A stretch of DNA of 64,000 bases. Source: Halorubrum vacuolatum. GTDB lineage: Archaea; Halobacteriota; Halobacteria; Halobacteriales; Haloferacaceae. Below the pieces are notes generated by a model. That model was not told the DNA's origin. It worked only from the letters and a program-made list of their open reading frames with translations, and made no database searches. The DNA is taken from assembly GCF_900188065.1 (NCBI RefSeq), contig NZ_FZNQ01000003.1, positions 1 through 64,000 of the forward strand. Reading direction: 5' to 3'. Of the stretch, positions 6,395 through 34,087 are shown in pieces; position 1 is the stretch's first letter, and every line of letters begins with the position of its first letter. A program made the translations under genes and the position numbers.

Positions 6395-6397
6395 ATT

Positions 6398-8347: not shown

Positions 8348-9468
8348 TGCCTTGTTTTGCCGCCAATTGACGACAGTCTCAGCCACCTCATCTCCGATAT
8401 TCCGTCAGATTAAGTGGGAAATGGACGCCGTCTGGCGATATGGCATCGCTCAGACGGCTTGCATGGATGTGTCGAAACCTTGCCAAACAGCATGTTGACG
8501 ATCCAGATGTACCCGCCGCGCCGGATGGCGCGGACGGGTATGCCCAATGGACCCAGATCGCGTTGATTCTGTTCCGTGTCGAATTGGAAAAGAGCCTCCG
8601 AGAGACGGAAGATTACCTCAACGAGATGCCCGGTGTCCTTGCCGTATTTGACCTCGACGAGGCACCGCATTACAGCTCATTCTGCAGGTGGGAAAACGAG
8701 TATCGAATGCGTGAACTCCGCCGCCTGCTCCGCCGAAGCGCGGAGCAGGCGGGCTGGAGTGGTGAAGCCGCAATCGACGCCAGTGGTTTCCAACGCGATC
8801 AGACCAGTTACCACTACCGTGATCGCGCGAACTACTCGCTCCAGTCGATGAAGACCACGATCTTGATCGATGTGAACTCACTAGCGATCAAGGACGTTCA
8901 TTTTACGACGCAGAAGGCGTGGGACGGCCATATTGGGATGCAGGTCTTCCGCCGGAACGCGGAAGACCTGCGGGTCCTGTCTGCCGACGCGAATTACTCA
9001 TGGAGCGACCTCCGCGAGGAGTGTCGCTCCAACTCGACGCGACCGTTGATCAAACACAGAGAGCAGACCCCGCTACAGAAGGCTCATAACGCCCGGATGA
9101 ACGAGGATTACAACCAGCGGTGGATGAGTGAAACGGGCTTCTCGCAATTGAAGGAAGACGACGGCGAGAAGCTACGCTCCCGGAGCTGGCACGGCCAGTT
9201 CCGGGAGCTGATACGGAAGTGCATCATCCATAACCTAACGCAGGCGGCGAGTTAAGGGCTCGCCGCCTGCTCCCCTTCTCCGGACGTATCCGGGAGAGGC
9301 ATCGCCGTCGTCACCGGAACAACGAACCAAGATGCCATAGTTCTGACCCTTTGATGAACACTGCTAGCGACAGCTACTGCAACTTCTGAATCCGAGAACA
9401 GGGTTCTGGCACCGTGAAAGTGTGAATAATCTACCCCACCCCGACGCTGTCTTGCGTTCAACAAGGCA
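8348..9468 (+). mobile_element. ISH1-group (IS5 family) insertion sequence, copy 2, intact
   Basis: This 1121-bp element is bounded by TGCCTTGTT and its inverted copy AACAAGGCA and contains one transposase gene. Length, gene size and ends match the ISH1 group of IS5. The flanks (left AATAAAGA, right AGATAGAA) do not match, so its original target duplication has been lost, most simply by an adjacent deletion. It lies in the same orientation as copy 1 at 3481-4897. Confidence 0.85.
8440..9255 (+). CDS. ISH1-group DDE transposase
   Basis: This intact 271-residue IS5-family transposase catalyses cut-and-paste movement of the element. The catalytic acidic residues are visible: AIDASGFQRD (first D), LSADANYSW (second D), and the Y-R-E signature YNQRWMSETGFSQLK (E). 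It starts with MASLRRLAWM and ends NLTQAAS. It is the only intact transposase in the window and could act in trans on copy 1. The two copies differ at scattered bases, so neither is a very recent duplicate of the other. Confidence 0.9.
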   Translation: MASLRRLAWMCRNLAKQHVDDPDVPAAPDGADGYAQWTQIALILFRVELEKSLRETEDYLNEMPGVLAVFDLDEAPHYSSFCRWENEYRMRELRRLLRRSAEQAGWSGEAAIDASGFQRDQTSYHYRDRANYSLQSMKTTILIDVNSLAIKDVHFTTQKAWDGHIGMQVFRRNAEDLRVLSADANYSWSDLREECRSNSTRPLIKHREQTPLQKAHNARMNEDYNQRWMSETGFSQLKEDDGEKLRSRSWHGQFRELIRKCIIHNLTQAAS

Positions 9469-9570
9469 AGATAGAACCAAGCACGTCTCAATCACACTCG
9501 CTGGTCGACTATGTCTTGCTCGAACGACGTCTGCCTAAGAAAGCATTATTCTCATTCATGCGGACCTGAA

Positions 9571-9866
9571 GGGTGTCAATCTTAGTAGAGAGAATCACAG
9601 TAAAATTATTGTAACCACGCTCAGTCTGCGATTTTTCGATGGAGAAGACGTGCTAATTCAGCCTCTGCGAGTGTTTCTGGGTCTCGTGCAGCATCAGCTG
9701 CATGGTCGATCGCTTCAGCAATGCTTTCCAGATCTTGGTTAACCACAAATTCGGTCAGTTTGACAGCTGTCTCGTCTAAAATCGTGACGCCCGTCTATGC
9801 TTCAGGAGGCATGGACACATCTGGTCTATATTACCGTTAAATTGCTGTACTCTAAGGTTGACACCT
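9571..9866 (-). mobile_element. ~296-bp inverted-repeat element, copy 2 (inverted relative to copy 1)
   Basis: The ends GGGTGTCAATCTTAG (left) and CTAAGGTTGACACC (right) reproduce the 15-bp terminal repeat of copy 1 with one or two mismatches. The interior is the same small gene on the minus strand. About 89% identity across the gene shows that the copies diverged some time ago. The pair brackets about 8.8 kb of the island in inverted orientation. Confidence 0.6.
9621..9812 (-). pseudogene. Dead copy of the small RHH-like gene
   Basis: It aligns without gaps to the gene at 503-694. Codon 6 is TAG (9795-9797) where copy 1 has TAT. The rest of the frame stays open (TGVTILDETAVKLTEFVVNQ and onward) to TGA at 9621. 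A downstream restart is not obvious, so the copy is probably inactive. Confidence 0.7.
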
Positions 9867-9978
9867 CTAGAATACGGAACATTAAACTCAGTATTCATCG
9901 TTGAGTTGTACCTATCAGAATACAAAAAAGAAACTAATCGAAATGTACATCGGTCATACGGTGACCACATCCAGTTGA

Positions 9979-10584
9979 ATGAGCAGCGAACAACAATCTC
10001 GGAACCGAACGGATCGAACCACCTCATCGATGAACCGGATTTTGGATGAAGAGTTGCTCGCAGAGATCCAGCGCCTCCATGACGAACTCGGGCACGTCCC
10101 AAAAGTCGTCGAAATGGAAGAATACGGTGCTTATTCGTACGGTGTGTACTACAAGCGTTTCGGCGGATGGGAAGCGTCGATTTCGAAAGCCGGCTTCAAA
10201 ACGGATCAAATTCCCCGTAAAACGGGCTGGATTCCTGAGAAAGAGTTGCTCGCAGAGATCCAGCGACTTCATAATAAGCTTGATCGTGTACCGAAAACTC
10301 TCGATATGATCGAACACGGTGAGTACAGTGACGTTACGTACCGGAACCGGTTCGGATCATGGGACGAAGCGATTACGCAGGCTGGGTTCGATCCGGCGGA
10401 TATCCCACGCGTATCGCGAATTCCCGACGAAGAACTCCTTGCAGACCTACGTGATCTCGCTGAGGAAATTGATCGCATTCCAAGGCAAATAGATATGTTC
10501 ACATACGGGACGCATGCGCCAAACACGTATCGCGTGCGCTTCGGTTCGTGGCCTGATGCGCTTGAGAAAGCAGGGATCAAATGA
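9979..10584 (+). CDS. Three tandem homing-endonuclease-associated (HNH) repeats
   Basis: The 201-residue protein consists of three ~62-residue repeats (about 20-80, 84-143 and 147-201). Each follows [DE]ELLAE/D...L...PxxxxM...G.Y....Y..RFG.W..A...AGF. This is the repeat found beside HNH and GIY-YIG homing nucleases and in haloarchaeal DNA-binding proteins, where it is thought to contact DNA. No nuclease domain is present, so it may be a stand-alone DNA-binding protein or a leftover of a mobile endonuclease. The ATG at 10030 (MNRILDEELL), just before repeat 1, is an alternative start. A TTAAACTC box lies ~90 bases upstream. Confidence 0.75.
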   Translation: MSSEQQSRNRTDRTTSSMNRILDEELLAEIQRLHDELGHVPKVVEMEEYGAYSYGVYYKRFGGWEASISKAGFKTDQIPRKTGWIPEKELLAEIQRLHNKLDRVPKTLDMIEHGEYSDVTYRNRFGSWDEAITQAGFDPADIPRVSRIPDEELLADLRDLAEEIDRIPRQIDMFTYGTHAPNTYRVRFGSWPDALEKAGIK

Positions 10585-10840
10585 GTTGAGTTGCATCCGG
10601 ATCACCCCTCAAGATCGGTCCCATATCTCTGAGGGAAGGCGCTGTTGAAACCCTATTCTTTAGACAGATTCTCATCTGAATCAACCGGTCGATGAGAGAT
10701 GCGTATTGAGTGCTTCAGGCACGGGTGAGTGGCTGTACAAATGCGTCCAAGCAAACGAGTAGTGTGAGTACGAAGAAGTGAGCGGTCACGAGTGAATGTC
10801 TGGTCCGAACGTTCAACATGACAGACGGAGATTGGAAGTT
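10585..10840. other. Intergenic region without a recognised gene
   Basis: About 256 bases separate the HNH-repeat gene from the lipoprotein gene. I see no convincing ORF or RNA gene. It presumably holds the promoter of the downstream gene pair. Confidence 0.4.
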
Positions 10841-11983
10841 ATGAGACGGCCATTTGTGTTCTGCTGTGTTGTCATCATGCTACTCCTTGCGGGGTGTGCT
10901 GGCCTCCCCGGTGATGACGGAGTCTCAACTGACGACGTTCTCGTTGATGACCAAGCCGATCACGACGACGTTGCGGATTCTGATGACGACACTGGAGATG
11001 ACAGCGACACCGACGATCAAACAGACGAGCGTGAGACACCAGCCACGGCCGATGGCGACCTCGAGATCCACCACATCGATGTCGGGCAAGCCGATGCGAC
11101 GCTGCTCATCACGCCCACGGGCGAGACCATCCTGATCGATACCGGTGACTTCCGTCAGCGGGGAGCAGGCGTCATCGAATATCTCGAAGATCAAAAAATT
11201 GACCGGATCGACCACCTCGTCGCGACGCATGCACACGCCGACCACATTGGCGGGCACGACGCTGTGATCGAGTGGGCGGAGACTGAGGGCGACGGCATTG
11301 GCGCTGCCTATGACTCCGGGGTGCCGCATACCACTCGGACTTACGAGCGATATCTCGATGCGGTAGAGGAATACGACGTCGATCTTTTTACCGTCGAGGA
11401 AGGCGACGAATTGCCGATCGATGGCGATCTCAACGCGCTCGTCGTGAATCCACCAGCTGGTGACTCCGGGAGCAATTTACACTACAACAGCGTCTCGCTC
11501 GTGTTCGAGTTTGGCGAGTTCACCTATCTGACGACCGGCGACGCCGAGCGCGACGCCGAAGAACGGATGGTCGACGAGTGGACTGGCGAACTTGACGCCG
11601 ATATGTATCAGGCAGGCCATCACGGCTCGCGCACGTCGTCAACGCCGGCGTTCCTTGACGTCGTGACGCCGGAGATGGTGATCATCTCGAGTGCGTACGA
11701 GTCACAGTATGGGCATCCACACGACGAGGTGCTCGATTCGTTCGCCGACCGCGAGGTCGAGACCTACTGGACAGGCGTTCACGGCGACGTTGTGGTGACT
11801 GCCAACGGTACGGGCTCTATCGACATCGCGAGCACAGAGGCGTTCTCCACGGACGCCGCCGACCTCCGGGCAGAAAAGCCAAGCGACGACGACCAGCAGT
11901 CGATCGAGCAGCCAGCAATCGGGAACGCACTACTCGGACACTCTACTGACTACACGCCACAGCAGGAGGCGAGCACCGGATGA
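10841..11983 (+). CDS. Secreted metallo-beta-lactamase-fold lipoprotein (ComEC C-terminal-like)
   Basis: The protein has a hydrophobic leader ending in a lipobox (MLLLAGC), so it is probably a membrane-anchored extracellular lipoprotein. An Asp-rich linker follows, then a metallo-beta-lactamase domain with THAHADHIGG (HxHxDH), TTGDAERDAE and AGHHGSRTSS metal-site motifs. This domain resembles the hydrolase part of ComEC/Rec2; the transmembrane channel part is absent. Such stand-alone proteins are common in haloarchaea and are likely nucleases or phosphoesterases; the substrate is unknown. I chose the ATG at 10841 because it gives a proper signal peptide (MRRPFVFCCVVIM); an upstream ATG at 10796 is possible. 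It overlaps the DUF3006 gene by 4 bases. Confidence 0.8.
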   Translation: MRRPFVFCCVVIMLLLAGCAGLPGDDGVSTDDVLVDDQADHDDVADSDDDTGDDSDTDDQTDERETPATADGDLEIHHIDVGQADATLLITPTGETILIDTGDFRQRGAGVIEYLEDQKIDRIDHLVATHAHADHIGGHDAVIEWAETEGDGIGAAYDSGVPHTTRTYERYLDAVEEYDVDLFTVEEGDELPIDGDLNALVVNPPAGDSGSNLHYNSVSLVFEFGEFTYLTTGDAERDAEERMVDEWTGELDADMYQAGHHGSRTSSTPAFLDVVTPEMVIISSAYESQYGHPHDEVLDSFADREVETYWTGVHGDVVVTANGTGSIDIASTEAFSTDAADLRAEKPSDDDQQSIEQPAIGNALLGHSTDYTPQQEASTG

Positions 11984-12288
11984 GCACCTATACCGCGGTC
12001 GTCGACCGCATCGTTGACGGCGAAACCGCTGTGCTCCTACTCGAGGAGGTCGACGAGCACGATACGCAACTCGACCTGCCGGTAGAGAGGCTCCCGGCGA
12101 ACGCACAGCGTGATGGAGCCGTCCTGACCGTTACACTCGTCGACGGGACGGTGACGTCGATACAACACGAGCAGGCGAAAACCCAGAAACGTCGAGAGGC
12201 CGCACAAAAGCGATTAGATCGGCTCTCAATGCCACTCCGTGAGCGAGATCAAGAGAATGCGGACGACGCCGCGGAACATGACTCTTGA
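11980..12288 (+). CDS. DUF3006 family protein
   Basis: This 102-residue acidic protein matches DUF3006: a small beta-rich N-terminus (AVVDRIVDGETAVLLLEE, LDLPVERLPANAQ, DGAVLTVTLVDG) and a charged helical tail rich in K/R/E. DUF3006 genes are typically found directly downstream of ComEC-like metallo-hydrolase genes, as here, with an ATGA start/stop overlap that implies translational coupling. The molecular role is unknown. Confidence 0.8.
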   Translation: MSTYTAVVDRIVDGETAVLLLEEVDEHDTQLDLPVERLPANAQRDGAVLTVTLVDGTVTSIQHEQAKTQKRREAAQKRLDRLSMPLRERDQENADDAAEHDS

Positions 12289-12623
12289 TCGACCACGCTC
12301 GTCAAGCACGGATTTGTTCCTCCGGATAAAGCGTGGATATTATGAACCAGATAAGGAAGGAAGTAAAGTATCTTGCCGGAGAGGTCGACGCTTCAACGCT
12401 TGAGGCAGCTGACTTCGCAGAGTAAGGTATCTGTGCTGCGGGTCACCGCTTTCGCTCCCAACATTCAATATATACAGATCCGACGCCTACTTGATAGCTT
12501 CTGTCGATAGCGTTAATGACTCAACCCACAAACCGTTCGTTATTTAAATTTGACTAATTAGATGGCACAGAATAGTGTAAAACGTCACATAAATTATAAG
12601 TGGGCGTATGACATGGTTTTTTT
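12289..12623. other. Intergenic region with only a minor ORF
   Basis: The only candidate is a 27-codon frame (12342-12425, MNQIRKEVKYLAGEVDASTL...), which has no recognised family and is more likely fortuitous. The last ~80 bases are AT-rich (AAATTATAAG) and likely contain the promoter of the PH-SHOCT gene. Confidence 0.35.
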
Positions 12624-13205
12624 ATGGGACTTTTCGATAACAACGATGACGCCCCGTTGGAAAACGCTGACCTAGATTGCCAACCACAGAACGAATTCGT
12701 AAGTAAGAGCGAAGTAAAAAAAATAGACGAATACTTGGACCCCGGAGAGAAGGTACATTTCTTAGCCGTGAGTGCCGGAGAGGGATTCGAGATTGATGGC
12801 GAAAGTATAGGTGATGTTTCAGCTCAACGAACCGCTGTAACTGATAAACGTATTGTGATCAAAAAGAAAAGGGGCCTATTTGGGCTTGAGTCGCAGAGTA
12901 TTTGGTATGACAATATCTCTTCGGTTGATTTGAGTTCCGGTCTAGTAAACAAAAGGCTACGCGTGGAGACATCATCAAAAGTATATGGCATTGGAATTGG
13001 GGGTCTCGCGGATGATGCTGCTGAGAACATGAGTAATTTCATACGAACCAAGGTGTCACAAGCTAATCAGTCCGGTAGCAACAGCGGAGGTACAAGTGAT
13101 GATCCACTTGATAAACTCGAACGACTACGTGATTTAAAAGACGAGGGAGTAATTACTGAACAGGAATTAGAGGAAAAGAAATCAGATATTCTGGATCAAA
13201 TCTAA
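12624..13205 (+). CDS. PH-like domain protein with C-terminal SHOCT domain
   Basis: Residues ~30-145 resemble a bacterial PH domain: YLDPGEKVHFLAVSAGEG, a strand pair around AVTDKRIVIKKKRGLFG, the hallmark SIWYDNISSVDLSSG, then KVYGIGIGGLADDAAENMSN. A Ser/Gly linker leads to a SHOCT domain (DPLDKLERLRDLKDEGVITE...EKKSDILDQI), a short helical module found at the ends of many oligomerising membrane-associated proteins. No TM is present. The gene is AT-rich compared with the chromosome and converges on the zinc-ribbon pair (the ends overlap by 4 bases). Function unknown. Confidence 0.75.
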   Translation: MGLFDNNDDAPLENADLDCQPQNEFVSKSEVKKIDEYLDPGEKVHFLAVSAGEGFEIDGESIGDVSAQRTAVTDKRIVIKKKRGLFGLESQSIWYDNISSVDLSSGLVNKRLRVETSSKVYGIGIGGLADDAAENMSNFIRTKVSQANQSGSNSGGTSDDPLDKLERLRDLKDEGVITEQELEEKKSDILDQI

Positions 13206-13630
13206 AAAATAATAAATAATATGAACAGAAACACAGCAATTACCACCAGATAGATAAGCCAGCTCGGAATTTCTGTACTACCCTCTTTTTGTCGAAGCTT
13301 ACTCGTAAGTTCTGGTGGTAATTTTCCCGTGTATGGGGGAGATTCTGGTGAGATCCCATGTACTACTTCTACACAATCCTCGCAAACAAGATACGCCGAT
13401 ACGTCGGGAAGACGCGTCTCGCTTTCCTCAAGTTCGAATTGAATCTCTTGATCCCAGTTACCTGCATCTGCAAACTCACGACTGACTGTTCCTTCGCCCA
13501 GAAGAACTGCGTACCCTTGAGGTTCAATCACATCTTCAGGGACATCATCCATGGCAACTTCCTCACCACAAACATCACAGTAACTAGTTGAATACGATAT
13601 CTCCTCAGTGATTGCAGTCTCTTTAGGCAT
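13202..13630 (-). CDS. Zinc-ribbon protein with C-terminal membrane anchor
   Basis: The 142-residue protein has a CDVCGEEV pair near residue 18 and CEDC near residue 84, forming a probable four-Cys zinc site around a central GYAVLLGEG segment. The last ~20 residues (WLIYLVVIAVFLFILFIIF) are one transmembrane helix, so it is a tail-anchored protein. It is a paralogue of the upstream gene at 13634-13942 (shared Y-x-T/S-S-x-C-x2-C-x2-EV and YL-C-x2-C spacing). Three bases separate the two, so they form an operon. No named family is recognised. Confidence 0.6.
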   Translation of the reverse strand: MPKETAITEEISYSTSYCDVCGEEVAMDDVPEDVIEPQGYAVLLGEGTVSREFADAGNWDQEIQFELEESETRLPDVSAYLVCEDCVEVVHGISPESPPYTGKLPPELTSKLRQKEGSTEIPSWLIYLVVIAVFLFILFIIF

Positions 13631-13633
13631 GGA

Positions 13634-13942
13634 TCACTCAGGGAAATTGTATACGGCTTTGGCACATGATTTGCATAGATACTGTTGTTCTAATGGGCTC
13701 TTTTTTTTGCCCAAGAACCACTTCACGATTACTTTCGGCGTGCGGTAGTTTCTTGCATGAGCTACTGGTGAGGTTTGATCAACGCTAATGTGATTGCCGC
13801 CGCCAACAAAAACAGGTGTTCCCCGCGGAAGATTATCTATATTATCTATGTCGTTATCAATGAAGACCTCATCGCTACAATGAACACAGACAGATGTTTC
13901 ATACTCCACAGTTTTCGATTTTGCGGTTGTTCGCTCGCTCAT
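13634..13942 (-). CDS. Small zinc-ribbon protein, paralogue of its neighbour
   Basis: The product from Met at 13942 has 102 residues with CVHCSDEV (~19-26) and CKSC (~92-95) flanking a GTPVFVGGG segment, the same layout as the downstream paralogue but without the TM tail. The frame is open to 14134; I chose the internal ATG because the paralogue's similarity begins there (MSERTTAKSKTVEYETS). The upstream extension is Arg-rich and unlike the rest. The gene lies next to the island boundary at 14190. Confidence 0.55.
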   Translation of the reverse strand: MSERTTAKSKTVEYETSVCVHCSDEVFIDNDIDNIDNLPRGTPVFVGGGNHISVDQTSPVAHARNYRTPKVIVKWFLGKKKSPLEQQYLCKSCAKAVYNFPE

Positions 13943-14190
13943 AGCCGATAACGGGTCATAGATACCTAGCCTTATTGTATTTTCCCTGTAGGCGGTGGTG
14001 AAAAAGTCTTCACAAGGAACCGGTGAGACGAATTTGCGTTGTACCTGTCTACTGCATTCACCAGCCATTCCCACCCTAATTTCCGATAATCTTCCCTCCC
14101 GGAAAGTGAACCCAATGTGTGCCGCATGAGGCATGCATATATAACTTATATTTTAATAGAGCCGTGAAGGAACCAATCTACTAGTAGTAT

Positions 14191-22235: not shown

Positions 22236-25200
22236 TTACCGCCGGCTGCGCGCCGCGATACTCGCCACGAGGAGGAGCGACACGATCGCGACGAACGCGA
22301 CAGCCGGACCGAATCCGGGGATCGAGTCGTCCGTTCCAACCTCCTCTTCGAGTGGCTCGTCGGGAGCGGTCTCCGTTTCTGTGGACTCCTCAGCGTCATC
22401 GGATGTCGGCTCCTCGACGTCTTCCTCTGTCGTTGGCTCCTCGTCGGGGGTCGCTTCCTCAACGTCTTCCTCTGTTGGCTCCTCGTCGTCGGTCGCTTCC
22501 TCAACGTCTTCCTCTGTTGGCTCCTCGTCGTCGGCTGCTGAGCCGGACGAGCCGGACCCGCTTCCGCTGCCGGAGGATCCAGAACTGCTGCTCGATCCGT
22601 CGTCAGCTTCCTGTGCCGTTTCAACGGTGAACCCGGTCTCTGCCGTTTCCACGTTGCCGGCGGTATCGGCAACGGTGACGGTCGCGCCGTAGGACTCGCC
22701 CGGTTCGACCGGCATGACGTGTTCCGCACTCGAGGAAGTGATGCTGGTCTCTTCGTGGCCGGTGACGTCCTCACCGTCGATCTCAAGGGTTACCGATCCC
22801 ACGTCGACGCCGGACCGGTCGTCCTCGTACTCGAACCGAACCGTGGTCTCCTCGGTGTCCGCATCGAGCGTGGAACCGTCCGACGGGGACGCGTCGGTGA
22901 TCCGCGGTGCGTCCGTGTCGGGCACGAACGCGCCGTACGTCGAGAACCCGGTGACTGAGGCACTCAAGAACGGATCGTTCCCGTCTAACCCGGTCGTTGA
23001 GTCAATGATTGGATCAGTCGTCCAGCTTTCACTTGCGTCGTCGTAGTACTGCAACTCGACATCGCCGGCCGACGCGCCGTCAGGAAGTTCGGACTCGTCG
23101 ATTGCCATCATGATCGACGCGTCGATGTCGTTGAGTTCGCCGTCGAAGGTGCCAGTGAGGAATCCCACACCCAACTGGTCATCTTCAAGATTCGCGTTGG
23201 CACGTGTCTCCGACAGCGATGTGAACCGTTCTTTGTCTTTGTCAGCCCCCGCAGCGCCAGTGAATTCGACTTTCGTACTGCTATCTCCAACCTCGAGGAC
23301 GGGATCATTGAGCGTGAATCCGGGATTCAGGCTAATCGACGTCTCATCGACCACGTCGTTGCCTGCGAGGTCGGTTCCGACGTTCCGCAACGCGTACGTG
23401 CGTGGTTTATCGGGCTGCACAGCGAGACGGGTGTCGCCGGGCTGAACGAAGATGCGAGTGTCACCCGGCTGCACCGACGTGGCACCGTTGTCTTCGAGAC
23501 GTGTGTCGCCGGGCTGAACGAAGATGCGAGTGTCACCCGGCTGCACCGACGTGGCACCGTTGTCTTCGAGACGTGTGTCGCCGGGCTGAACGAAGATGCG
23601 AGTGTCACCCGGCTGCACCGACGTGGCACCGTTGTCTTCGAGACGTGTGTCGCCGGGCTGAACGAAGATGCGAGTGTCACCCGGCTGCACCGACGTGGCA
23701 CCGTTGTCTTCGAGACGGGTGTCGCCGGGCTGAACGAAGATGCGAGTGTCACCCGGCTGCACCGACGTGGCACCGTTCCCACCGGACACGGCGAGCTCGC
23801 CGCCCTCATCGACGAAGATACGGGTGTCGCCCGGTTGAACGGCTGTCTCGTCGTTGTCTTCGAGACGAGTGTCACCTGGCTGGACGAAGAGGCGATCACC
23901 TTGGCTGGTTCCGATCCGCGTGTCGCCCGGCTGGACAGCGGTCTCATCGATTTCGCGCGATACTTTGAGCTCACCGTCATCGATGAAGATGCGGGTATCT
24001 CCGGGCTGGACGAAGATGCGAGTATCGCCCGGTTGGACGGTGTTCTCACCGTCAGTAATTTCGATGTCACCACCCTCGTTGACGAAGATTCGCGTATCAC
24101 CAGGTTGAACCGAGGTCACGCCGTTTTCATCTCCAACGTTGAGTTTCCCGCCTTCATCGACAAAGATGCGGGTGTCCCCAGGTTGAACCGATGTCTCGTC
24201 GTCTCCACCGGCGATGTTGAGTTCGTCATTCTCAGCGAAGATTCGGGTGTCACCCGGTTGAACCGATGTATCACCGTTGTCGTCGAGGCGAGTGTCGCCG
24301 GGCTGAACGAAGATACGGGTGTCTCCAGGTTGGACGAAGAGGCGCATATCGCCCGGCTGAACCTGTTCATCGTCGCCGTCACGGGTGTCGCCGGGGTGGA
24401 CGGCGACCGGGGTGCCGTCGTCCTCGCTTGTAATCTTGAGCTTGTCGTTCTCGGCGAAGATTCGGGTATCGCCTGGTTGAACCGACGTATCGCCATTCTC
24501 ATCGTCGTCGCGTGTGTCTCCGGGCTGGACAAAGAACCGCGTATCGCCCGGTTGGACGAAGATGCGGGTGTCACCGGGTTGAACCTGTTCGCCCCCGATA
24601 TCGAGTTCGACAGAGCCGCCGACGAAGTCGCCCAGCAGGGCTTCAACGTCGGCATCGATTTCAGGAACGTTCGCGAGCGGCGTGTCGCTTTCCACCAGCA
24701 GGCTCGGGCCGTTCCCGCTGGCGTTCTGTAGCGTCGTCGAAACGGCCGGTGTCTCGCGATCGATTAGCAGGACCTCGTCGGCGTCGCCCGTTGTGACGGC
24801 TCCGTTCGTATCGGTGGTGTCCGCAACAATCTCGTACCGTCCATCGTCTTCGATCGCGGCGAGAGTCACCGTTGCCGTCCATGCGTCACCGCCCTGGTGG
24901 GTCGCCTCGAATGTGCGCGTGTAGGTCGTCTCGAGCGAGCTAACCGAAACCGCTACGTCCTCCAATTCGACATCGGAGACAACCTCGAGTTCAACGGACA
25001 CGTCCTCGCTCGCGTAGACGCGGGGCATCCCGGTTACGGGATCGGTGTCTTCGCCATTGCCGATAACGTTGGTGACCGCAACTTCTGGCCTTGGTTGGTC
25101 GTCAGCTTCGACGGTCACCTCGACGCTGTCCGTTTCACCTTCGTACGTTGCGGTCACGGTCGCCGTTCCTGAACTCTCAGCTGTAAGAGCAGATCCATCA

Positions 25201-28200
25201 ACCGACACGACCCTGGTATCGCTGCTGTCGAAGGCTGCATCTCCGGTGACGTCTTCGGTTGAATCATCGTCGAACGTCGCCGTCACAGTCACCGGGGTCG
25301 TCGATCCCTCGGTAAGGGTTGTCTCTGCGGCATCGAGCGTGACCGATTCCAGCGTGGCTGGCTGCTCGGACACCGAGAGGCTGATCGTATCGGACCCAAC
25401 GATCGTGTTATTCTTAATTTCGCTCACGGCGACTACCGCATCGGCGCCATCAAATTCAGGCTTTGACGCAACTGCGAAGGTTTCCGTAATCGTATCTTCT
25501 GGAGCGAGAACGAGCGGAGATTCTCTGAAATCCACATCCAATGGGTCGACATCTGTAGGGAGTTCGTCTCCGTCTATGACGCCAGCGGCCATGACGGTGA
25601 TCACAGCGGCTGTGACGTCGCCATCGTTGGTAATCTCAGCAACGACCGTGATTTCCTCGCCGTCTTGGACATCGACCGTACTTTCATTCCCGAGGATATC
25701 GACGGTGAATTCGACCTCATCCGGGTCGGGTATCGGTTCAGCAGTGAGGTCAACGTCTTCCACCGCTTCTCCTTCATCTACGGTTACCGTAATCGGTGCT
25801 GCGATCAACTCCTCGGTGAAGATGCTGACTTCATAGGTTCCGGGTGGCACGTCGATCGCATACTCGCCGGTCTCGTTCGTGACGGAGCCCAAATCAATCA
25901 GTTCGCGGTCGTCCCTGTCCGTCTGCATAACGGTATCCACCGATTCGCTCGGACTACTGACGATCTCGCCGGTTTCCGCGTCAATAACCTGTATCGGAAC
26001 GCCGGTGATCGGATCCTCATCTCCATCAGTGACGGTACCAGTGATCGTCGCGGGCTCAGGGACGGGTTCGAGAGCAACATCGACGGTCTTGGTTTCGCCG
26101 TCGGCCACTTCGACGTCGCTGACGGTCGTCGGCTCTAGTCCGAGGCCCTCGACGGACACCGAGACCTCATAGGTACCGGGAGCGACGTCGACCGCGTACT
26201 CGCCCGTTTCGTTCGTGGTTACACTTTTAGAAGACTCACCGATGACCCGCACGAGAGCGCCGGGGACGGGTTCCCCGCTATCGACAGCCGTGACCGTTCC
26301 CTCGATCGTTCCGAGCGGTATCGGTTCGAGTTCGACGGAAACGGTTGTCACCGAATCCGAGCTCACTTCGACATTACTGACGCTTTCACTGTCGAGCGCG
26401 GGATCCGACGTTGTGATCGTGACGGTGTATGTCCCGGGCGCGACATCGATTGCGTACTCACCGTCGGCATTCGTTTCGGTGCTCGTGCCGGCCACGGACA
26501 CGCTAGCACCGGAGACTGGCTCACCGTCGGCAGTGATGACGCCGGTGATCGTTCCATCTTCCTCAGGCACATCACCGTCTCCCGGGTCTTCCGCGCCGCT
26601 CTGTGGAGCTGTCGCGACCGGCGTGAACTGGATCGGCCCGCTGTCGACCTGGATCGCGTCACCGTCGCCGTCCGCTTCAGCACCTGTTCCGGCATCGACG
26701 AACGGCCCGTCGCTTCCAGTCGTGCTTGGGCCGCTCTCGGCACCCCACCAGTTGTCTGTCGCGTCAAGTGTCGAAGTGCCGCCGTCGTATCGGAGGCCGA
26801 AACCACTGTTTCCATCGATATCGTTCCCGGTTATCGTGATTTGATTGGCATTTGGACCGACATAGACACCACGGGTGTTAGCCAAAATCTGGTTTCCCGT
26901 GACGCCGACACCCTCATCGCCGACGGATTCGATCCGTAGTCCGTCTGTGTTGTCCTCTATCGTATTCGACCCTATCGTGATTAGCCCGTCTGCGTCGACT
27001 CTCAGACCAGCAGCATCGTTTAGGATTCCACCATCATCGTGGCCACGTATACTGTTATCTTCAACGATCACATCAGCGACCGTCTCTATCTCAATGCCAT
27101 GGTCTGCGTTATCGGCGACTGTATTGTTCAGAATGGTAACGATGTCGGCATTACGAGTATATATCCCGAATCTGTCGTTGTTCTTGATTTCATTGTTTTC
27201 GATATCGACTGTTGTCGCAGACGTGATTTGGATTCCATCACCCTCGGTAAAACGGTCGTTCCCGTGACTCTGGAGAATCGTGTTGTTCCGGATCGAATCG
27301 ATATTGGAACTGCCGACGATTCCGTTCCCGTTATTCTCAACGTGGTTGTCGGCGATGACTCCATCCGCGTTGATCCCGGTTCTCTCGTTGTTACGGACCG
27401 TGTTGTTCGTCACCGCCTCGGCATCGCTTCCGGAAATCCCGACGTCATCGCCATCCGTGACACGATTCGAGTCGATAACTGTCGCAGTCTCGAATTCAGG
27501 CGGTATACCGGCCGAAAAAGCATTTATTCCTCGTTCGGTAGTCTCTTGGACATCATTATGAGAGATGTCTACCGCCCCTGAGTTCCGGACCCATATTCCT
27601 CTCTCGGAACTGTTGACTTCGTTCGACTCAATAGTTCCCACCTCGACCTCGTCGAACCGAATCGCGTGGGATGCGTGTCCAGATAGATCACTCATCGCAA
27701 TCGTGACGTTGGTCGAATCGGCTGCGACGATGCCACCGGCACCGTCGCCCTCACCGGTTGTGTCGACAATCTCTCCGTCGGTGAAAGTCGCGTTTTCAAC
27801 CCCCTCGAACCAGATACCGGTGTTATATCCGGTAACTGTCGTGCCAGAAATATCGATTGTCGTTTCGCCAAGGACTGCAATCCCGCGGTCACCGCCCGAA
27901 CCCGCCTCGGTCACGGACATATCAGTAACTGACACATCATCGCTTTCGAAGACAAGCAGACCGATCGGCACTCCCTCACTCTCGATCGCATTAACCGTTA
28001 CATCGGTAGAACCGACGACAAAGACCTGTCTCGCATCCGATGGGGCTTCGGTCCCGGACTCACCAGTCGCGTAGAACAGCGGCGAGTCGTCTTCGAAAAC
28101 ATTGTTGTCGGCGCCGTGTGCGAAGTGCTCGAGTTCCTCACCGTCGACGAGTATTCCTGCCTCGAATGTGTTGTCAAACAGTTCAACATCGCTCACGCGA

Positions 28201-30596
28201 TCGAGAACGAGGTCTGTGTTGTGGTCGACGTAGGTGTTGTTCTCAATCTCAATTTCGGAAACGTAGGGTGTGAACACGGTGCCGTCCCCGTTCGACTCAA
28301 ACTGGTTGTCGGTCACGAACACGCCCGACGGGAACTCGTTCTCGGGGTCAGGATCACTAGATCCGCCTCCGCCGCTTCCACCCGGCGTAATGGGGTTGGC
28401 GATGGTATCGACGTACAGTCCGATCTCGCCACTGCCAATGATTTCGTTTCCGGATACGGTGGTGTCCTCAGCCGCACGGAAGAAGTCCTCTGCGATGCCG
28501 TCAACGGTCGAAGAGCGGTATGCAAGACGGACCCCATGTTCCGCGCTGTCGGTGATTTCGTTGTCTCGGATTTCGATACCGGTCCCGAAATCGACACGGA
28601 CGCCGTCGACGCCGGCGTTCGAAATCTCGTTGTCGATCAACAGCGCCTCGTTGCGCTGGTCACTAAATGCTCCACCGGTCGACCGCGGGGTGCCCGTACC
28701 TTGCCAGAAGTTATCGTAAAACATCACGCCAAACCGGCCGACATCGGTGATCGTGTTGTTTTCGAACGTGCCGCCTCCCGCCGAGCCGACCTGAATGCCG
28801 TTCCCATCACCGCCTTCGATGTGGTTTCCGTACGCGTGCAGATCACCAGCAGCTTTAGTGAACCGAATTCCGGCGTCAGTGCTGTCTATAATCTCGTTGT
28901 GGCGAATCACCGTGTCGGTCTGGTTCAGCGTCGAAGAGATCCCGACGTCGTTTCGAGCGAGAACGTTGTCTTCGACAGTGGCGCGCGTGGTTGCTTCGAG
29001 CCTCACACCCGCGTTGCTCTCGTTGAGTCGGTTGTTCGTGACCGTGACGTCAGTCGTGTCTAGAAACGTTAGATCGGGATCGGTCAGGTCGAATCCACCC
29101 CCTCGCTGAACTTCTATTCCTGATGGGCCCGCGTTCGTTACATCGTTGTTTTCGATGACGGTTCCCGACGAAAGCCCGACAAGGAGGATAGAAGCGCTCG
29201 AGGTGTCTTCGATGACGTTGCCCTCGATGAGAGCGTTCGCGGAGCCGTTATACGTCTCGGAAGGTCCTGGACTGAATCCGAGTTGGATCGCCGGGCCGTT
29301 CTCAACGTTCGTGATGTCGTTTCCACGAATCTCCGCGTTAGAGGCGTCAAACGGCTTATCTCCAAACGTATCGAACCCGTCTTCAGAAACCAGTATTCCC
29401 TGACCGACGTCCGTCAGGGTATTGTCCTGAATAACGACATTTTGTGAGTCTATCGCCTGAAGCACATGGCTTGTCTGGCTACGCGGATCTGAAATATCGT
29501 TCTCGCGTATCTCAACGTCAATCGTTTCCTCGGCGATGATCGCACCTCGGAGAGTCTGTTCAAGCGTGTTGTCCGTAACCAGTGCCCCATTGACACTCTG
29601 GACAAAAATCCCAGTGTATGGCGCGTCTCCCGCCGTGGATTGGCTGTTGTTACTAATCTTGTTCCCGCGAACCTCAATACCTGTTAAGACTCGCTGCTCG
29701 TCAACGAACTCATCGCTGCCTTGAACGTGAATCCCGCGGAACCCGTTGTCCTCAGCCGTATTGTCTTCAATCGTCACCGAATTTGCATCTTGGATATAGA
29801 TTCCAGACATCTCGTTCCCCGTGACGGTGTTCGATTCGACCGATGTACCCGCCGAGAGGTTCCATACGTTGATCCCCTGCCGGGCGTTGTCGCTGGCGTG
29901 ATTCTCGCTGATCTCACCATCCGGTGAATCAAAGAACCGGATTCCGGGGGCGTCCTCGTCGAGCTCGAACCCGTTTCCGGTGACGGTACTTCCTGTAACA
30001 GTCCCATCCCGCGCGTTCTCGAAGAGGATCCCAACACCACCGTTGTTGGTAGCGGTTACGTCATCAACGGTCACATCGGTTGCTCCGTCGACTCGGATTC
30101 CATGTCCCGGGAAGTTCTGCACAGTGATCCCAACGACTGAGGCCTCACTCGCCGAGATACTGATTCCCGTTCCATCCGCATCACCCGGTTCAAGTACCGG
30201 TGATGCTCCCGGGACTGATTTAAGTGAAACCTGTTTGTCCAACACCACCGATTGCTCGTACGTTCCATTCTCAAGACAGACCGTGTCGCCTACATCTGGG
30301 TCCGTGATAGCATCCTGTATCGAGTCACCGGGCGATACAGTAACGTCACACTGTGGGGAATCTATTGCAGCCGTTGTTCCAGCGAACACGCTGAGGCCCA
30401 ATACGAACAGGAGAATCACGAGACCGACTGTGGCTGTTCCGACAGCTCTGAGCAATCCCGTACGATCACGCGAGCCTACTCGATTACGAACGCGATGATG
30501 TTCATGACTGCTCGCTGGGTCTGCGCCCTCACGCACCGCCCTGCCTTCGTCCGCCCTGCCCTGCTCGGCTCCAGTAGTTGAATATCCGTCTCTCAT
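22236..30596 (-). CDS. Giant cell-surface protein: beta-helix, Ig-like domains, VQPGDTR repeats, PGF-CTERM anchor
   Basis: From Met at 30596 the product has ~2786 residues. An Arg-rich N-terminus precedes an export helix (ATVGLVILLFVLGLSVFAG). Residues ~90-1340 are NosD-type parallel-beta-helix coils (SPGDSIQDAI, then repeated IxxNxxxxxxxGIxV). Three carboxypeptidase-regulatory-like domains follow (GVITADGEPVSGASVSVAG and kin, YxVxVAPGTY), then a CARDB-like segment and a Big_2 Ig domain (ESVTLDAAETTLTEG). Next is a region with 26 V[QH]PGD[TM]R motifs, one more Ig-like domain, a Ser/Gly and EPTEEDVEEAT acidic stalk, and the PGF-CTERM signal (SIPGFGPAVAFVAIVS...ARSRR) for archaeosortase processing and lipid anchoring. 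It likely acts in adhesion or polysaccharide binding. Confidence 0.85.
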   Translation of the reverse strand: MRDGYSTTGAEQGRADEGRAVREGADPASSHEHHRVRNRVGSRDRTGLLRAVGTATVGLVILLFVLGLSVFAGTTAAIDSPQCDVTVSPGDSIQDAITDPDVGDTVCLENGTYEQSVVLDKQVSLKSVPGASPVLEPGDADGTGISISASEASVVGITVQNFPGHGIRVDGATDVTVDDVTATNNGGVGILFENARDGTVTGSTVTGNGFELDEDAPGIRFFDSPDGEISENHASDNARQGINVWNLSAGTSVESNTVTGNEMSGIYIQDANSVTIEDNTAEDNGFRGIHVQGSDEFVDEQRVLTGIEVRGNKISNNSQSTAGDAPYTGIFVQSVNGALVTDNTLEQTLRGAIIAEETIDVEIRENDISDPRSQTSHVLQAIDSQNVVIQDNTLTDVGQGILVSEDGFDTFGDKPFDASNAEIRGNDITNVENGPAIQLGFSPGPSETYNGSANALIEGNVIEDTSSASILLVGLSSGTVIENNDVTNAGPSGIEVQRGGGFDLTDPDLTFLDTTDVTVTNNRLNESNAGVRLEATTRATVEDNVLARNDVGISSTLNQTDTVIRHNEIIDSTDAGIRFTKAAGDLHAYGNHIEGGDGNGIQVGSAGGGTFENNTITDVGRFGVMFYDNFWQGTGTPRSTGGAFSDQRNEALLIDNEISNAGVDGVRVDFGTGIEIRDNEITDSAEHGVRLAYRSSTVDGIAEDFFRAAEDTTVSGNEIIGSGEIGLYVDTIANPITPGGSGGGGSSDPDPENEFPSGVFVTDNQFESNGDGTVFTPYVSEIEIENNTYVDHNTDLVLDRVSDVELFDNTFEAGILVDGEELEHFAHGADNNVFEDDSPLFYATGESGTEAPSDARQVFVVGSTDVTVNAIESEGVPIGLLVFESDDVSVTDMSVTEAGSGGDRGIAVLGETTIDISGTTVTGYNTGIWFEGVENATFTDGEIVDTTGEGDGAGGIVAADSTNVTIAMSDLSGHASHAIRFDEVEVGTIESNEVNSSERGIWVRNSGAVDISHNDVQETTERGINAFSAGIPPEFETATVIDSNRVTDGDDVGISGSDAEAVTNNTVRNNERTGINADGVIADNHVENNGNGIVGSSNIDSIRNNTILQSHGNDRFTEGDGIQITSATTVDIENNEIKNNDRFGIYTRNADIVTILNNTVADNADHGIEIETVADVIVEDNSIRGHDDGGILNDAAGLRVDADGLITIGSNTIEDNTDGLRIESVGDEGVGVTGNQILANTRGVYVGPNANQITITGNDIDGNSGFGLRYDGGTSTLDATDNWWGAESGPSTTGSDGPFVDAGTGAEADGDGDAIQVDSGPIQFTPVATAPQSGAEDPGDGDVPEEDGTITGVITADGEPVSGASVSVAGTSTETNADGEYAIDVAPGTYTVTITTSDPALDSESVSNVEVSSDSVTTVSVELEPIPLGTIEGTVTAVDSGEPVPGALVRVIGESSKSVTTNETGEYAVDVAPGTYEVSVSVEGLGLEPTTVSDVEVADGETKTVDVALEPVPEPATITGTVTDGDEDPITGVPIQVIDAETGEIVSSPSESVDTVMQTDRDDRELIDLGSVTNETGEYAIDVPPGTYEVSIFTEELIAAPITVTVDEGEAVEDVDLTAEPIPDPDEVEFTVDILGNESTVDVQDGEEITVVAEITNDGDVTAAVITVMAAGVIDGDELPTDVDPLDVDFRESPLVLAPEDTITETFAVASKPEFDGADAVVAVSEIKNNTIVGSDTISLSVSEQPATLESVTLDAAETTLTEGSTTPVTVTATFDDDSTEDVTGDAAFDSSDTRVVSVDGSALTAESSGTATVTATYEGETDSVEVTVEADDQPRPEVAVTNVIGNGEDTDPVTGMPRVYASEDVSVELEVVSDVELEDVAVSVSSLETTYTRTFEATHQGGDAWTATVTLAAIEDDGRYEIVADTTDTNGAVTTGDADEVLLIDRETPAVSTTLQNASGNGPSLLVESDTPLANVPEIDADVEALLGDFVGGSVELDIGGEQVQPGDTRIFVQPGDTRFFVQPGDTRDDDENGDTSVQPGDTRIFAENDKLKITSEDDGTPVAVHPGDTRDGDDEQVQPGDMRLFVQPGDTRIFVQPGDTRLDDNGDTSVQPGDTRIFAENDELNIAGGDDETSVQPGDTRIFVDEGGKLNVGDENGVTSVQPGDTRIFVNEGGDIEITDGENTVQPGDTRIFVQPGDTRIFIDDGELKVSREIDETAVQPGDTRIGTSQGDRLFVQPGDTRLEDNDETAVQPGDTRIFVDEGGELAVSGGNGATSVQPGDTRIFVQPGDTRLEDNGATSVQPGDTRIFVQPGDTRLEDNGATSVQPGDTRIFVQPGDTRLEDNGATSVQPGDTRIFVQPGDTRLEDNGATSVQPGDTRIFVQPGDTRLAVQPDKPRTYALRNVGTDLAGNDVVDETSISLNPGFTLNDPVLEVGDSSTKVEFTGAAGADKDKERFTSLSETRANANLEDDQLGVGFLTGTFDGELNDIDASIMMAIDESELPDGASAGDVELQYYDDASESWTTDPIIDSTTGLDGNDPFLSASVTGFSTYGAFVPDTDAPRITDASPSDGSTLDADTEETTVRFEYEDDRSGVDVGSVTLEIDGEDVTGHEETSITSSSAEHVMPVEPGESYGATVTVADTAGNVETAETGFTVETAQEADDGSSSSSGSSGSGSGSGSSGSAADDEEPTEEDVEEATDDEEPTEEDVEEATPDEEPTTEEDVEEPTSDDAEESTETETAPDEPLEEEVGTDDSIPGFGPAVAFVAIVSLLLVASIAARSRR
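23450..23776 (-). repeat. 72-bp in-frame tandem repeats inside the surface-protein gene
   Basis: At least four near-identical 72-bp units encode a 24-residue unit (VQPGDTRIFVQPGDTR then LEDNGATS). The DNA identity between units is almost complete, unlike the more diverged VQPGDTR copies at 23777-24590, so this block has expanded recently by slippage or recombination. Confidence 0.8.
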
Positions 30597-30986
30597 ATTG
30601 CATTCTCCACTCACGACCCGCGCCGTCAACGGCAAAGAGCCGCTCCGGTGGTCACCGCCGCATGGCGGCGGGACCGACACCCCGTTTGGCAACCGACGAC
30701 GTCGGTGCCCGAACGGATCTGCCCGTCGGATTGTCCCGATCGGTCCCCCCGGATCGATCGATCCGATCGGTGACGACCGCGGATTCGTTCGCCGAGAGCC
30801 TCACGACGCTGGAGACGGCACGATCGTTCCCGTGCAAGAGGCCACCGTTCGCCCCGTCCCGGTCGTGGCTGGTCTCGGTTGTTGATATCTCCCAAGGAAA
30901 GGTAATAACGGCTCGCGAACCTCGAACTCACCTACCCACTTACCTTGAAGTAACCTCACGGCTGGCCACGCCGATCGACGCGTAGG
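30597..30986. other. Intergenic region upstream of the giant surface-protein gene
   Basis: This region is GC-rich with only short shadow frames. It should contain the promoter of the surface-protein gene (reading left) and the 3' flank of the histidine kinase gene. I see no clear TATA box, RNA gene or repeat. Confidence 0.35.
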
Positions 30987-32831
30987 CTATCGATCCTCGT
31001 CCGGGGGCTCCGGCACGGCCGGCAGCGTGAACGCGACCGTCGTCCCCGATCCCGGCGTCGAGTCGATCGTCAACTCGCCCCCGTGCCGAACGACGATCCG
31101 CTCACAGATGGCGAGCCCCATTCCGGTTCCGGCGTCGCGGTCGACGTCGGCGCCCCGAGTGAACGGCTCGGCGGCGTACTGCAGTTCCCTCGGGTCGATC
31201 CCGACACCGTCGTCGCGAACGACGATCCGCCACATCGACCCCTCCCGCGTCGCCGACAGCGTGACCGTCGGCGCGGGCCCGGCGTGCTCTACGGCGTTCG
31301 CGATCAGGTTCTGCAGGAGCCGTCGAAGCAGGTGTTCGACCCCGTGTACCGTCGGGAGGTCCTCGATCGCCACGGTCGCCTCGCACTCGTCGATCCGGTA
31401 ACGCAGCGCGTCGAGCACCTCTCCGACGAGCCGATCACAATCGACGGGCTCCGTCGGCTCGTCCTCGATGCCGATCCGCGAGTACGCCAGCAGGTCGGTC
31501 ACCATCTCGTGACCCCGCCGGCTGTTCGCCCGTGCGACAGAAAGGAGCATTTCGGCTTCCTCATCCAGGTCATCACCGACCTGCCGCTGCAGCGCGCCGA
31601 GATAGCGTTCCGTCGTCCGCAACGGCGCTCGAAGGTCGTGTGAGATGACGCCGGTGAACGCCTCCAGATCCTGCTCGCGGCGCTTTTGTACCGTGACGTC
31701 GCGGAGCACGATCACCTGCCCGAGATGTCTCCCCCGCCGCCGGAGCGGCCGTGAGCGGACCTCAAGGAACTCGGCATCCCCGCCGGCGGGGAGTTCGACC
31801 GTCGTTCGGATCGTTTCCTCGACCTCCATGGCGTCCGTTCGCTCGTCCGTCCGTCCGCCGGTATCCCGAGCGCTCGCGATCTCCTTCCCTCCGTTCGGCG
31901 CCGCAGCTCCCGAAATCGCCGTCGCCAGCGGACCCTGCTCTGGCCGGTCTCCGATGGTCGGCGCTTCCTCGCCGAGCAACGAGGAGACCGTCGGATTGGC
32001 GTGGACGACGCGCCCACTCGCATCGAGGACGAGGATACCATCCGGCGTGTCGTCGATAACGGCTCGATAGGCGATCGGCCGGAGGTCGAGGACTCGATAG
32101 CGGACGGTCGCCACGCCGAGCGCGAGCGAGGAAACGACCGTCGAGATGGGTACGTAGTTCACGGCGTCGACGGTGAACGGCGGCACCGCCGCGGAGGTGA
32201 GCGCGCTCGTAGCGATGGGCGTGATGATGGCGACGACGAGGAGGGCGGTCTGTGGGAGGTATGTCCGTCCCCGTCGCACGCCTTCGATCCCGACGAGCGT
32301 GAGCGTCACGAGCGCGATCAACGCGGCATAGGTGAAACTCAACGCGACGTGTGCCGGGCCGGTCGTCGTTCGCAGGACGACCAGCCCGTCGACATCGACG
32401 ACGTGGGTTCCGGCGATGACGATCCCGGATGGGTTCCAAAAGAGCAGCAGCCAGAAGACGACCGGAACGGCGAAGAGCCCGGCGATGAACCGCGGGCGAA
32501 GCCATCGCGTCCGACCGGTGTATGCGAGGACGAACAACAGCAACAACGGCCCGACCGAGGAGCTACCGAAATAGAGCAGCCGATACGCGTGAAACTGCAC
32601 GCCAACGTCGGCGCTGAGCAGCTTCAGCGCCGAGAAGCCGGTCCAGACCGCGATCGCGACGTTCATCGCCGCGAAGGTGAGCAGGACGGAGTCGTCACCC
32701 GGCGTGACGGGATGGCCGTCGATCCCCCGTCGATATCGAAGCGCGTAGGCCGCAAGCGCCAACGAAATGGCGGCGGCAAGCAGGATCGGATACGCGTAGA
32801 TCGTGTGTTGCCACGCGAAGGCTGGTTCCAT
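30987..32831 (-). CDS. 7TM-PAS histidine kinase
   Basis: This 614-residue sensor kinase begins with the haloarchaeal N-terminal 7TM domain (about 10-235, seven hydrophobic stretches, e.g. LLFVLAYTGRTRW). A PAS domain follows (about 250-380, DDTPDGILVLDASGRVVHANP). The HisKA dimer domain carries the phospho-acceptor in FTGVISHDLRAPLRTTERYL, and HATPase_c has N-box NLIANAVEH, G1 VVRDDGVGIDP and G2 GTGMGLAICERI. All catalytic residues are present. The gene is followed on the same strand by a receiver/pseudokinase gene transcribed just upstream (11-base gap), suggesting a signalling pair. Confidence 0.9.
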   Translation of the reverse strand: MEPAFAWQHTIYAYPILLAAAISLALAAYALRYRRGIDGHPVTPGDDSVLLTFAAMNVAIAVWTGFSALKLLSADVGVQFHAYRLLYFGSSSVGPLLLLFVLAYTGRTRWLRPRFIAGLFAVPVVFWLLLFWNPSGIVIAGTHVVDVDGLVVLRTTTGPAHVALSFTYAALIALVTLTLVGIEGVRRGRTYLPQTALLVVAIITPIATSALTSAAVPPFTVDAVNYVPISTVVSSLALGVATVRYRVLDLRPIAYRAVIDDTPDGILVLDASGRVVHANPTVSSLLGEEAPTIGDRPEQGPLATAISGAAAPNGGKEIASARDTGGRTDERTDAMEVEETIRTTVELPAGGDAEFLEVRSRPLRRRGRHLGQVIVLRDVTVQKRREQDLEAFTGVISHDLRAPLRTTERYLGALQRQVGDDLDEEAEMLLSVARANSRRGHEMVTDLLAYSRIGIEDEPTEPVDCDRLVGEVLDALRYRIDECEATVAIEDLPTVHGVEHLLRRLLQNLIANAVEHAGPAPTVTLSATREGSMWRIVVRDDGVGIDPRELQYAAEPFTRGADVDRDAGTGMGLAICERIVVRHGGELTIDSTPGSGTTVAFTLPAVPEPPDEDR

Positions 32832-32842
32832 CTCGATCCTCC

Positions 32843-34087
32843 CTACTCCTCGCTACGTCCCGCCGTTCGACACGGCGCGCGCGGCAGCGTGACCGTTATC
32901 CGTGGGCCATCCCCCTCCCGTTCGACGTGGATGTCGCCGTCGAACGACTCGAAAAGCGTCGCCGCGAGGTACGATCCGACCCGCATCGCCGAGCGCGGCG
33001 GGTCCCGGTCGCTCGGACCGTCGCCGGCGGTCGTTGACCTGCCGGCCATCGGTTCGGTTGCGCTGTCGTGATGCGTACCGAATCGGCCATCGATGTCGCC
33101 CGTGAACGCCACGGACGCGCTCGTTTCGGTCACTTCGATGGTTGTGTCCACGCGCGGATCGGGTCGGTCGACGCGGTCCACGGCGTCCGAGAGCAGCTGC
33201 ACGAACGCCGACTCCAACATGGGCGATGCTCGCACCGTGATCGGTTCATCGACGTCGGTATCGGTCGGATCGACAACGACCCTCACGGCGGTTTCCGCGT
33301 GGACGCGATCGATCGCGGCATCCAACGCCGCATGGAGGTCGCGCACGGAACCGACCTCGTCGGTCGAGATGACGTCGATCACGTCCGCGGCCGTGTCGGT
33401 CAGTTCGGCCGCGCGCTCGGCCGCCTCCAGTAAGGTCTCGACCGCGTCGACCTCCGCCGGCGGGACGGATTCACGGAGGCCGTCGCCCAGTCCGATGACG
33501 ACGCTCAGTTCGTTTCGGATGTCGCGCCTGACGATCCGGTGTAACAGGTCGAGCCGATGGTTCCGGTCGGCGAGTTCCCGACGGGTGCGGCTTCGTTCCA
33601 TCGCGTTGCGGAGCGCGCGCAACACTCCTTCCCCGGTAATGTCGTCCTTGTTTAAATAGTCCTGCGCGCCGCGCCGCACGGCCTCGATCCCGACGACGGG
33701 TTCGTCCTGTCCGGTGAGGACGACGATGGGGATCGTCGGTGCCCCGTCGAGCATGCGTTCGACGGTCGTGAGCCCGCGGCTGTCGGGCAACATGAGATCC
33801 AACAGGACGACGTCCGGCGGCTGTTTCGAGCGAACGCGTCCGATGGCGTCGGCGAGTCGGTCGACGTGATCGATGCTTCTCACCTCGATCATCGGGGTCC
33901 CCCCGTCGGTGCGTCGGAGCGACTGTCGTTCGTGTACGAGCCGCTCGACGAACCGTGCGTCGTCGTGGTTGTCCTCCACCAGCAGCAGGTCGACGTCTTC
34001 TATCCCCTTGCCGGCGCTTGGACCGTTCGTGGCCTCGCGGTCGGCTCGGTTATCGATGTTCTCGCGGCCTGTTCGGTCGTCGGTCAT
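32843..34087 (-). CDS. Receiver domain fused to a degenerate histidine kinase
   Basis: The protein has 414 residues. A receiver domain spans ~30-165 with the acidic pocket (VDLLLVEDNHDDA), phospho-acceptor Asp (DVVLLDLMLPDSRG), Thr (VVLTGQDE) and Lys (YLNKDD). The following region resembles the haloarchaeal HisKA/HATPase arrangement, but the expected H-box reads LLHRIVRRDIRNELSVV: the usual His before D is Arg. The N-box equivalent (AFVQLLSDAVDRVD) lacks the Asn, and no G2 glycine box is visible. It is therefore probably a response regulator with a non-catalytic kinase-like output module. It lies 11 bases upstream of the 7TM kinase gene, likely the same operon. Confidence 0.8.
   Translation of the reverse strand: MTDDRTGRENIDNRADREATNGPSAGKGIEDVDLLLVEDNHDDARFVERLVHERQSLRRTDGGTPMIEVRSIDHVDRLADAIGRVRSKQPPDVVLLDLMLPDSRGLTTVERMLDGAPTIPIVVLTGQDEPVVGIEAVRRGAQDYLNKDDITGEGVLRALRNAMERSRTRRELADRNHRLDLLHRIVRRDIRNELSVVIGLGDGLRESVPPAEVDAVETLLEAAERAAELTDTAADVIDVISTDEVGSVRDLHAALDAAIDRVHAETAVRVVVDPTDTDVDEPITVRASPMLESAFVQLLSDAVDRVDRPDPRVDTTIEVTETSASVAFTGDIDGRFGTHHDSATEPMAGRSTTAGDGPSDRDPPRSAMRVGSYLAATLFESFDGDIHVEREGDGPRITVTLPRAPCRTAGRSEE

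Follow-up and report, generated by a model that had tools for sequence, protein, structure and literature searches.

What does a seven-residue peptide do for a giant archaeal surface protein when it is repeated 26 times close to the anchor? The repeat lies in a window of 64,000 nucleotides (the whole stretch of DNA analysed here) from Halorubrum vacuolatum, whose genome is a 3.48-Mb archaeal draft of 72 contigs. The surface protein is encoded on the minus strand (22236-30692), as are all of its parts described below. The ORF list gives up to 2818 amino acids from a TTG at 30692, and an ATG at 30596 (aa 33) is the likelier start. Behind a hydrophobic signal or membrane segment, recognised by eye at about aa 81-110 (30363-30452), Pfam and NCBIfam models place a right-handed parallel β-helix region of eight NosD/Beta_helix stretches (approximately 26680-30341), followed by three carboxypeptidase-regulatory-like domains (Pfam; approximately 25773-26549) and a Big_2-like domain that scores under Pfam's own cut-off (aa 1782-1861, 25110-25349). 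The anchor side comprises an Ig-like domain split by the repeat array, a domain whose predicted fold resembles GAIN/ZU5 (...FTSLSETRANANL...TGFSTYGAF; approximately 22917-23315), a C-terminal Ig-like domain assigned from sequence and homologues (DAPRITDASPSDGS...; approximately 22614-22916) and a linker rich in Ser/Gly and Glu (22335-22613), in which the Glu-rich part before the anchor is encoded by a 42-bp tandem repeat (2.9 copies, 22411-22534). At its very end (22239-22334) the protein carries a PGF motif (PGFG), a hydrophobic stretch and a basic tail (RSRR), together PGFGPAVAFVAIVSLLLVASIAARSRR, as in the tripartite PGF-CTERM signal (PMC7157517). The corresponding model TIGR04126 yields 22.9 bits, slightly under its cut-off of 24.5, and the paralogue from the same genome passes it. 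The β-helix N-terminal part and the tripartite anchor signal thus agree with an earlier note on this DNA, which had spoken of a giant archaeal surface protein.

The array itself (23400-24584, aa 2037-2431, about 395 residues) holds 26 heptads of the form V[QH]PGD[TM]R at 23427-24584, all in frame: 24 are VQPGDTR, one is VHPGDTR and one VQPGDMR. The first heptad codon is at 24584, the last heptad starts at 23447, and the heptads (aa 2037 to 2422) are followed by a degenerate tail, LAVQPDKPR, while a check of the whole protein found no heptad outside the array. The count of 26 is that of the earlier note, as are the doublets, of which there are ten at a spacing of nine residues, linked mostly by IF and also by FF or LF. 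The acidic spacers had been put at 8-18 residues, which is close: outside the pairs they measure 6-20 residues and are acidic as a rule, and over the whole array the spacer length ranges from 2 to 20. The heptad belongs to a larger unit of about 24-27 residues, VQPGDTR-IF-[VQPGDTR or VDEGGKLNV]-xxDNGxTS, as seen when VQPGDTRIFVQPGDTRLEDNGATS (24 residues), VQPGDTRIFVDEGGKLNVGDENGVTS (26), VQPGDTRIFVNEGGDIEITDGENT (24) and VQPGDTRIFAENDELNIAGGDDETS (25) are stacked. In such a stack, the VDEGGKLNV of the single units sits where the doublets have their second heptad, so that the two kinds of unit are interchangeable in length and position; a few units contain an extra segment of nine residues. 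Although acidic, the array has proportionally more Arg than the remaining protein, its basic residues amounting to 8.9% (35 of 395) versus 4.2%. N-glycosylation of the array was also considered and rejected, as it has no N-x-S/T sequon versus 19 in the rest of the protein.

Besides its anatomy, the DNA of the array reveals two different histories. The first 18 heptads have 18 distinct DNA sequences, with 78% identity on average, and only three peptides. Their pairwise differences at codon positions 1, 2 and 3 number 0, 17 and 683, and pS is 0.75, pN 0.019 and pN/pS 0.025, values that are descriptive and no formal test, since heptad pairs are not independent. All seven third positions vary, together with one second position and no first position. 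Because the peptide is nearly fixed while the DNA has diverged widely, we conclude that the peptide is under selection. In contrast, the last units follow a 72-bp period (23423-23777; 24 aa, VQPGDTRIFVQPGDTRLEDNGATS) with a 99% match over 4.9 copies, a copy number that may be wrong, as draft assemblies like this one of 72 contigs can miscount near-identical 72-bp copies. These last units are recent duplications, and from the comparison with the diverged heptads the array is old in its first part and still growing in its last. The near-identical tandem copies are also what a selfish or neutral minisatellite would leave behind if it had grown, functionless, in a tolerant loop, and such an origin would suit an array that is found in one genome only and that homologues manage without. 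However, a frozen peptide next to near-saturated synonymous sites is not expected from neutral drift, and the low pN/pS largely contradicts this explanation, which we regard as highly improbable. The array is real, well past chance and past simple DNA duplication. The possibility that the array alone is of foreign composition was dismissed, since its GC3 of 0.68 lies within the 0.63-0.73 of the remaining gene; the gene as a whole and the paralogue have a GC3 of 0.63-0.73, lower than that of the chromosomal neighbours checked (0.76-0.83). On the plus strand, antisense ORFs of 188 and 298 aa overlie the array (23402-24731), probably as a by-product of its codon pattern.

A fixed peptide would be expected of a repeated binding site, and the array could accordingly be read as a surface for multivalent binding, in which VQPGDTR contacts a glycan, a metal ion or another surface protein as partner and copy number provides avidity. 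All seven residues are near-invariant, the Arg among them, and basic residues are scarce in the rest of the protein. On the other hand, the array matches no binding domain, no partner is known, and the array has no RTX motif and a single DxDxNG-like loop; we therefore consider this reading improbable, although it is compatible with a role as stalk. The idea in the earlier note that the PGD turns and Asp-rich loops bind Ca2+ finds no positive evidence. Concerning RTX or hemolysin-type repeats (GGxGxDxUx), the array contains no GGxGxD, and no RTX model is among the Pfam matches up to E 1; concerning loops of the EF-hand-like, dockerin or thrombospondin type, it contains one DDDENG, which is not repeated.

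Further information comes from the insertion site. Homologue comparison shows that the array splits an Ig-like domain, whose first half (aa 1978-2036, 24585-24761) ends in ...VELDIGGEQ and whose second half (approximately 23316-23399) resumes with TYALRNVGTDLAGND... The same domain is free of the array, with an intact short strand such as THFTGSFATGETG, in the paralogue from the same genome (G000 C22) and in 26 further homologues, 18 of which come from named records (chiefly of Natrialbaceae and related haloarchaea, two of Halorubrum sp. JWXQ-INN 858). The array is thus absent from every homologue read, and the C-terminal module itself was found at E 1e-10 in only one of the 51 other genomes of the genus searched. 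In most of the close homologues (among L079-L095), about 10-14 tandem CARDB-like domains of about 95 aa (SDIQVIAAST...PGFYHLGALN...AGTYDLELGD) directly precede the conserved Ig module; no copy occurs in the window protein and three in the paralogue, in counts that are inflated by some weak matches. Since the homologues carry these tandem domains upstream and the window protein carries none, we propose that the array fills the role of a stalk, and this is our main argument for it.

With regard to the fold, AlphaFold2 models of a 237-aa part of the array by itself (from one sequence) and of the array in context (629 aa, 19 sequences) point in the same direction at low confidence. The array alone gave repeated strands at a mean pLDDT of 43. 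In context, 10-residue block means range from below 30 to 75, much of the array being below 50 and parts at 50-75; the 19 sequences inform the flanks only, and the alignment behind the model, like a second folding alignment, misplaced the piece preceding the array. The strands TRIFV, then TRLED or GKLN, then TSV recur every 24-26 residues or so (24 in the regular part), identically in units with a DEGG turn and in doublet units, and the same strands appear in the model of the array alone, so that in both models a predicted coil of about 24 residues comprises roughly three short strands. Foldseek ranked β-solenoids at or near the top, none of them significant (best E 0.27, array alone). VIA-align 2 aligned the array alone with the adhesin PfbA (Z 11.2, 3.8 Å over 229 residues) and the in-context model with a family 3 pectate lyase (Z 8.9, 3.1 Å over 156 residues), but Z values of 8-11 for a repetitive model may reflect merely a common arrangement, and a bias of AlphaFold2 towards β-helices may affect every repeat that is rich in strands. 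We take these models as a lead towards a three-sided β-solenoid and no proof of it.

The low model confidence could also be the signature of a flexible elastin-like or disordered acidic linker, in which PG turns block regular packing and which acts as a spacer only. The PG motifs and the acidic loops with their many Asp, Asn and Gly residues would suit such a linker, as would the spacers of very variable length, and an insertion within a domain loop is well compatible with a flexible excursion. Disordered linkers, however, seldom hold an exact peptide against near-saturated synonymous change, and here strand-forming residues (TRIFV, KLNV) recur and both models are rich in strands, which makes us consider a flexible linker rather unlikely. 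Complete disorder without conservation in relatives, which according to the earlier note would speak against an ordered repeat, applies in one half: no relative has the array, but within the array the peptide is strongly conserved against synonymous change, and strands abound in the models.

The array appears to be undescribed, and the earlier note likewise knew no named domain with this pattern: Pfam and NCBIfam give only sub-threshold, unrelated names, there is no match among PDB sequences, and VQPGDTR is absent from the text of the papers searched. A DNA pattern requiring two heptads at nine-residue spacing, which a divergent array could escape, was run over 84,980 species and found no second array in genome contigs. 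Its single match in viral contigs, which we attribute to chance, lies in a frame of phage-like coding sequence that is unrelated, and a protein-guided search of viral contigs gave none. Protein and unit-profile searches, whose heuristic first step divergent arrays could also escape, returned only weak matches outside the own genome among 391 Halobacteria genomes, and likewise in 59 relatives and 125 genomes of another family; in plasmids and phages only hits with E near 0.1-1 appeared. Nor did a second strain of the species that carries the gene turn up. Those weak matches that were read are other proteins with at most one chance motif each, with the exception of G088. Within what was searchable, the array is therefore an apparently undescribed short-unit repeat of one genome only, and this creates an evolutionary puzzle, since near-saturated synonymous sites imply old units.

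The weak match in G088 led to the discovery of a different kind of array. In five haloarchaeal genomes of another family (G088, G275, G106, G142 and G375; loci L053, L054, L055, L056 and L057), [FY]PG[DGS]xW motifs recur in 7 to 28 copies, mostly 12-17 residues apart, as repeats that again match no model. Their place is within the PGF-pre-PGF domain of β-helix surface proteins of a similar kind, which they interrupt directly before the strand TPHFSAFAL. Like the VQPGDTR array, they are tandem PG-turn repeats inside a near-anchor domain of β-helix surface proteins, but motif, period and host domain are others. Common descent of the two is not supported by the profile comparison (hhalign probability 4%), the insertion site differs, and we regard the W arrays as an analogue of the VQPGDTR array.

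Taken together, we tentatively favour, at little short of an even chance, the reading that the array serves a surface protein of the archaeosortase type as a β-structured stalk or spacer. Each unit of 24-27 residues would form about three short strands parted by tight turns, namely a QPGD turn, a second turn that is again QPGD or DEGG-like, and an acidic Asn/Gly loop. The units would stack into a rod on the anchor side, most likely a three-sided parallel β-solenoid, and this rod, its length possibly being tuned by the number of units, would determine how far from the cell surface, and how rigidly, the large β-helix part at the N-terminus is held. A solenoid stalk near the wall-proximal end, one of the two options in the earlier note, is the best structural guess for the anchor side, in low-confidence models. 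In favour of the stalk we count the peptide selection, the interchangeable units, the solenoid-like models, the β-helix N-terminus combined with the PGF-CTERM C-terminus, the CARDB-like repeats of the homologues and the W arrays. A real difficulty is that a rod with distant ends, placed in a loop of the Ig-like domain, would force the halves of this domain apart.

It is poorly understood how archaea hold functional parts away from a surface coated by an S-layer. If a stalk is indeed formed, it would be compact and adjustable in length, assembled from 24-residue blocks and functional in high salt, and related surface proteins with the same anchor module would use different stalks, either tandem domains of about 95 aa or a short-unit array. 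Both kinds of repeat occur in tandem, behind the N-terminal part and ahead of the conserved C-terminal module that these proteins share; they differ in repeat type and in position, as the CARDB-like domains lie directly upstream of the Ig-like domains and the array lies inside one.

We are likely dealing with a surface stalk, a known kind of biology, in a novel form. Its nearest counterparts are bacterial, the Periscope Proteins (SasG, Rib, Sgo_0707, CdrA; PMC8201768) and the fibrillar adhesins (PMC8286594), which share the design of a long anchored surface protein that has a large N-terminal part and, close to its anchor, tandem repeats. With respect to the highly identical DNA repeats that form the stalk of Periscope Proteins, the last 4.9 units of the array are near-identical in DNA and recently duplicated, the first 18 heptads average 78% DNA identity, and the stalk role is putative. 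Unlike both kinds, the window protein is archaeal and PGF-CTERM-anchored and has a non-globular unit of about 25 residues, with most units diverged in DNA. Because of this divergence, and because Periscope Proteins vary in repeat number between strains and the array is known here from one genome, we do not claim membership in the Periscope Proteins. Parallel β-solenoids, such as PfbA, pectate lyases, antigen 43 and the Ca2+-dependent β-helix of MpAFP, resemble the low-confidence predicted models, in which about three short strands make up a coil of some 24 residues, but the array has no detectable sequence relation to them and no Ca2+ motif. A bolder proposal, which we think possible but unlikely, is that VQPGDTR arrays would be short-unit β-solenoids of a new class, insertable by haloarchaea into pre-existing domains of anchored surface proteins, with rows of Asp and Arg stacked on the turns as an adaptation to high salt and with stalk length changing by coils of 24 residues instead of whole domains.

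In addition to the array, several other features of the window deserve mention. The domain at 22917-23315 (aa 2460-2592) is well predicted and GAIN-like (CD97, Z 9.9; BAI3, 9.2), and it also resembles ankyrin ZU5-UPA (9.4) and, more weakly, the FIIND of NLRP1 (7.4), some of these structural alignments extending into residues that precede the array. Distant homologues and PGF-pre-PGF domains have HFS (VSHFSTYGAV, TPHFSAFAL), like the self-cleavage site of the GAIN/ZU5 type; the window protein has GFS. Prokaryotic ZU5 domains are known (PMC3482391), and the part of that paper's text available to us does not mention PGF domains. Directly upstream of the surface protein gene, the minus strand encodes a 7TM histidine kinase and a response-regulator protein (30987-34087), which may control this gene. 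Elsewhere, the G+C content is 39-56% over 4001-14000 (39% at 6001-8000) versus 60-70% in most of the window, which suggests an island or integrated element, and an exact 33-bp tandem repeat of 2.2 copies is found at 61936-62009.
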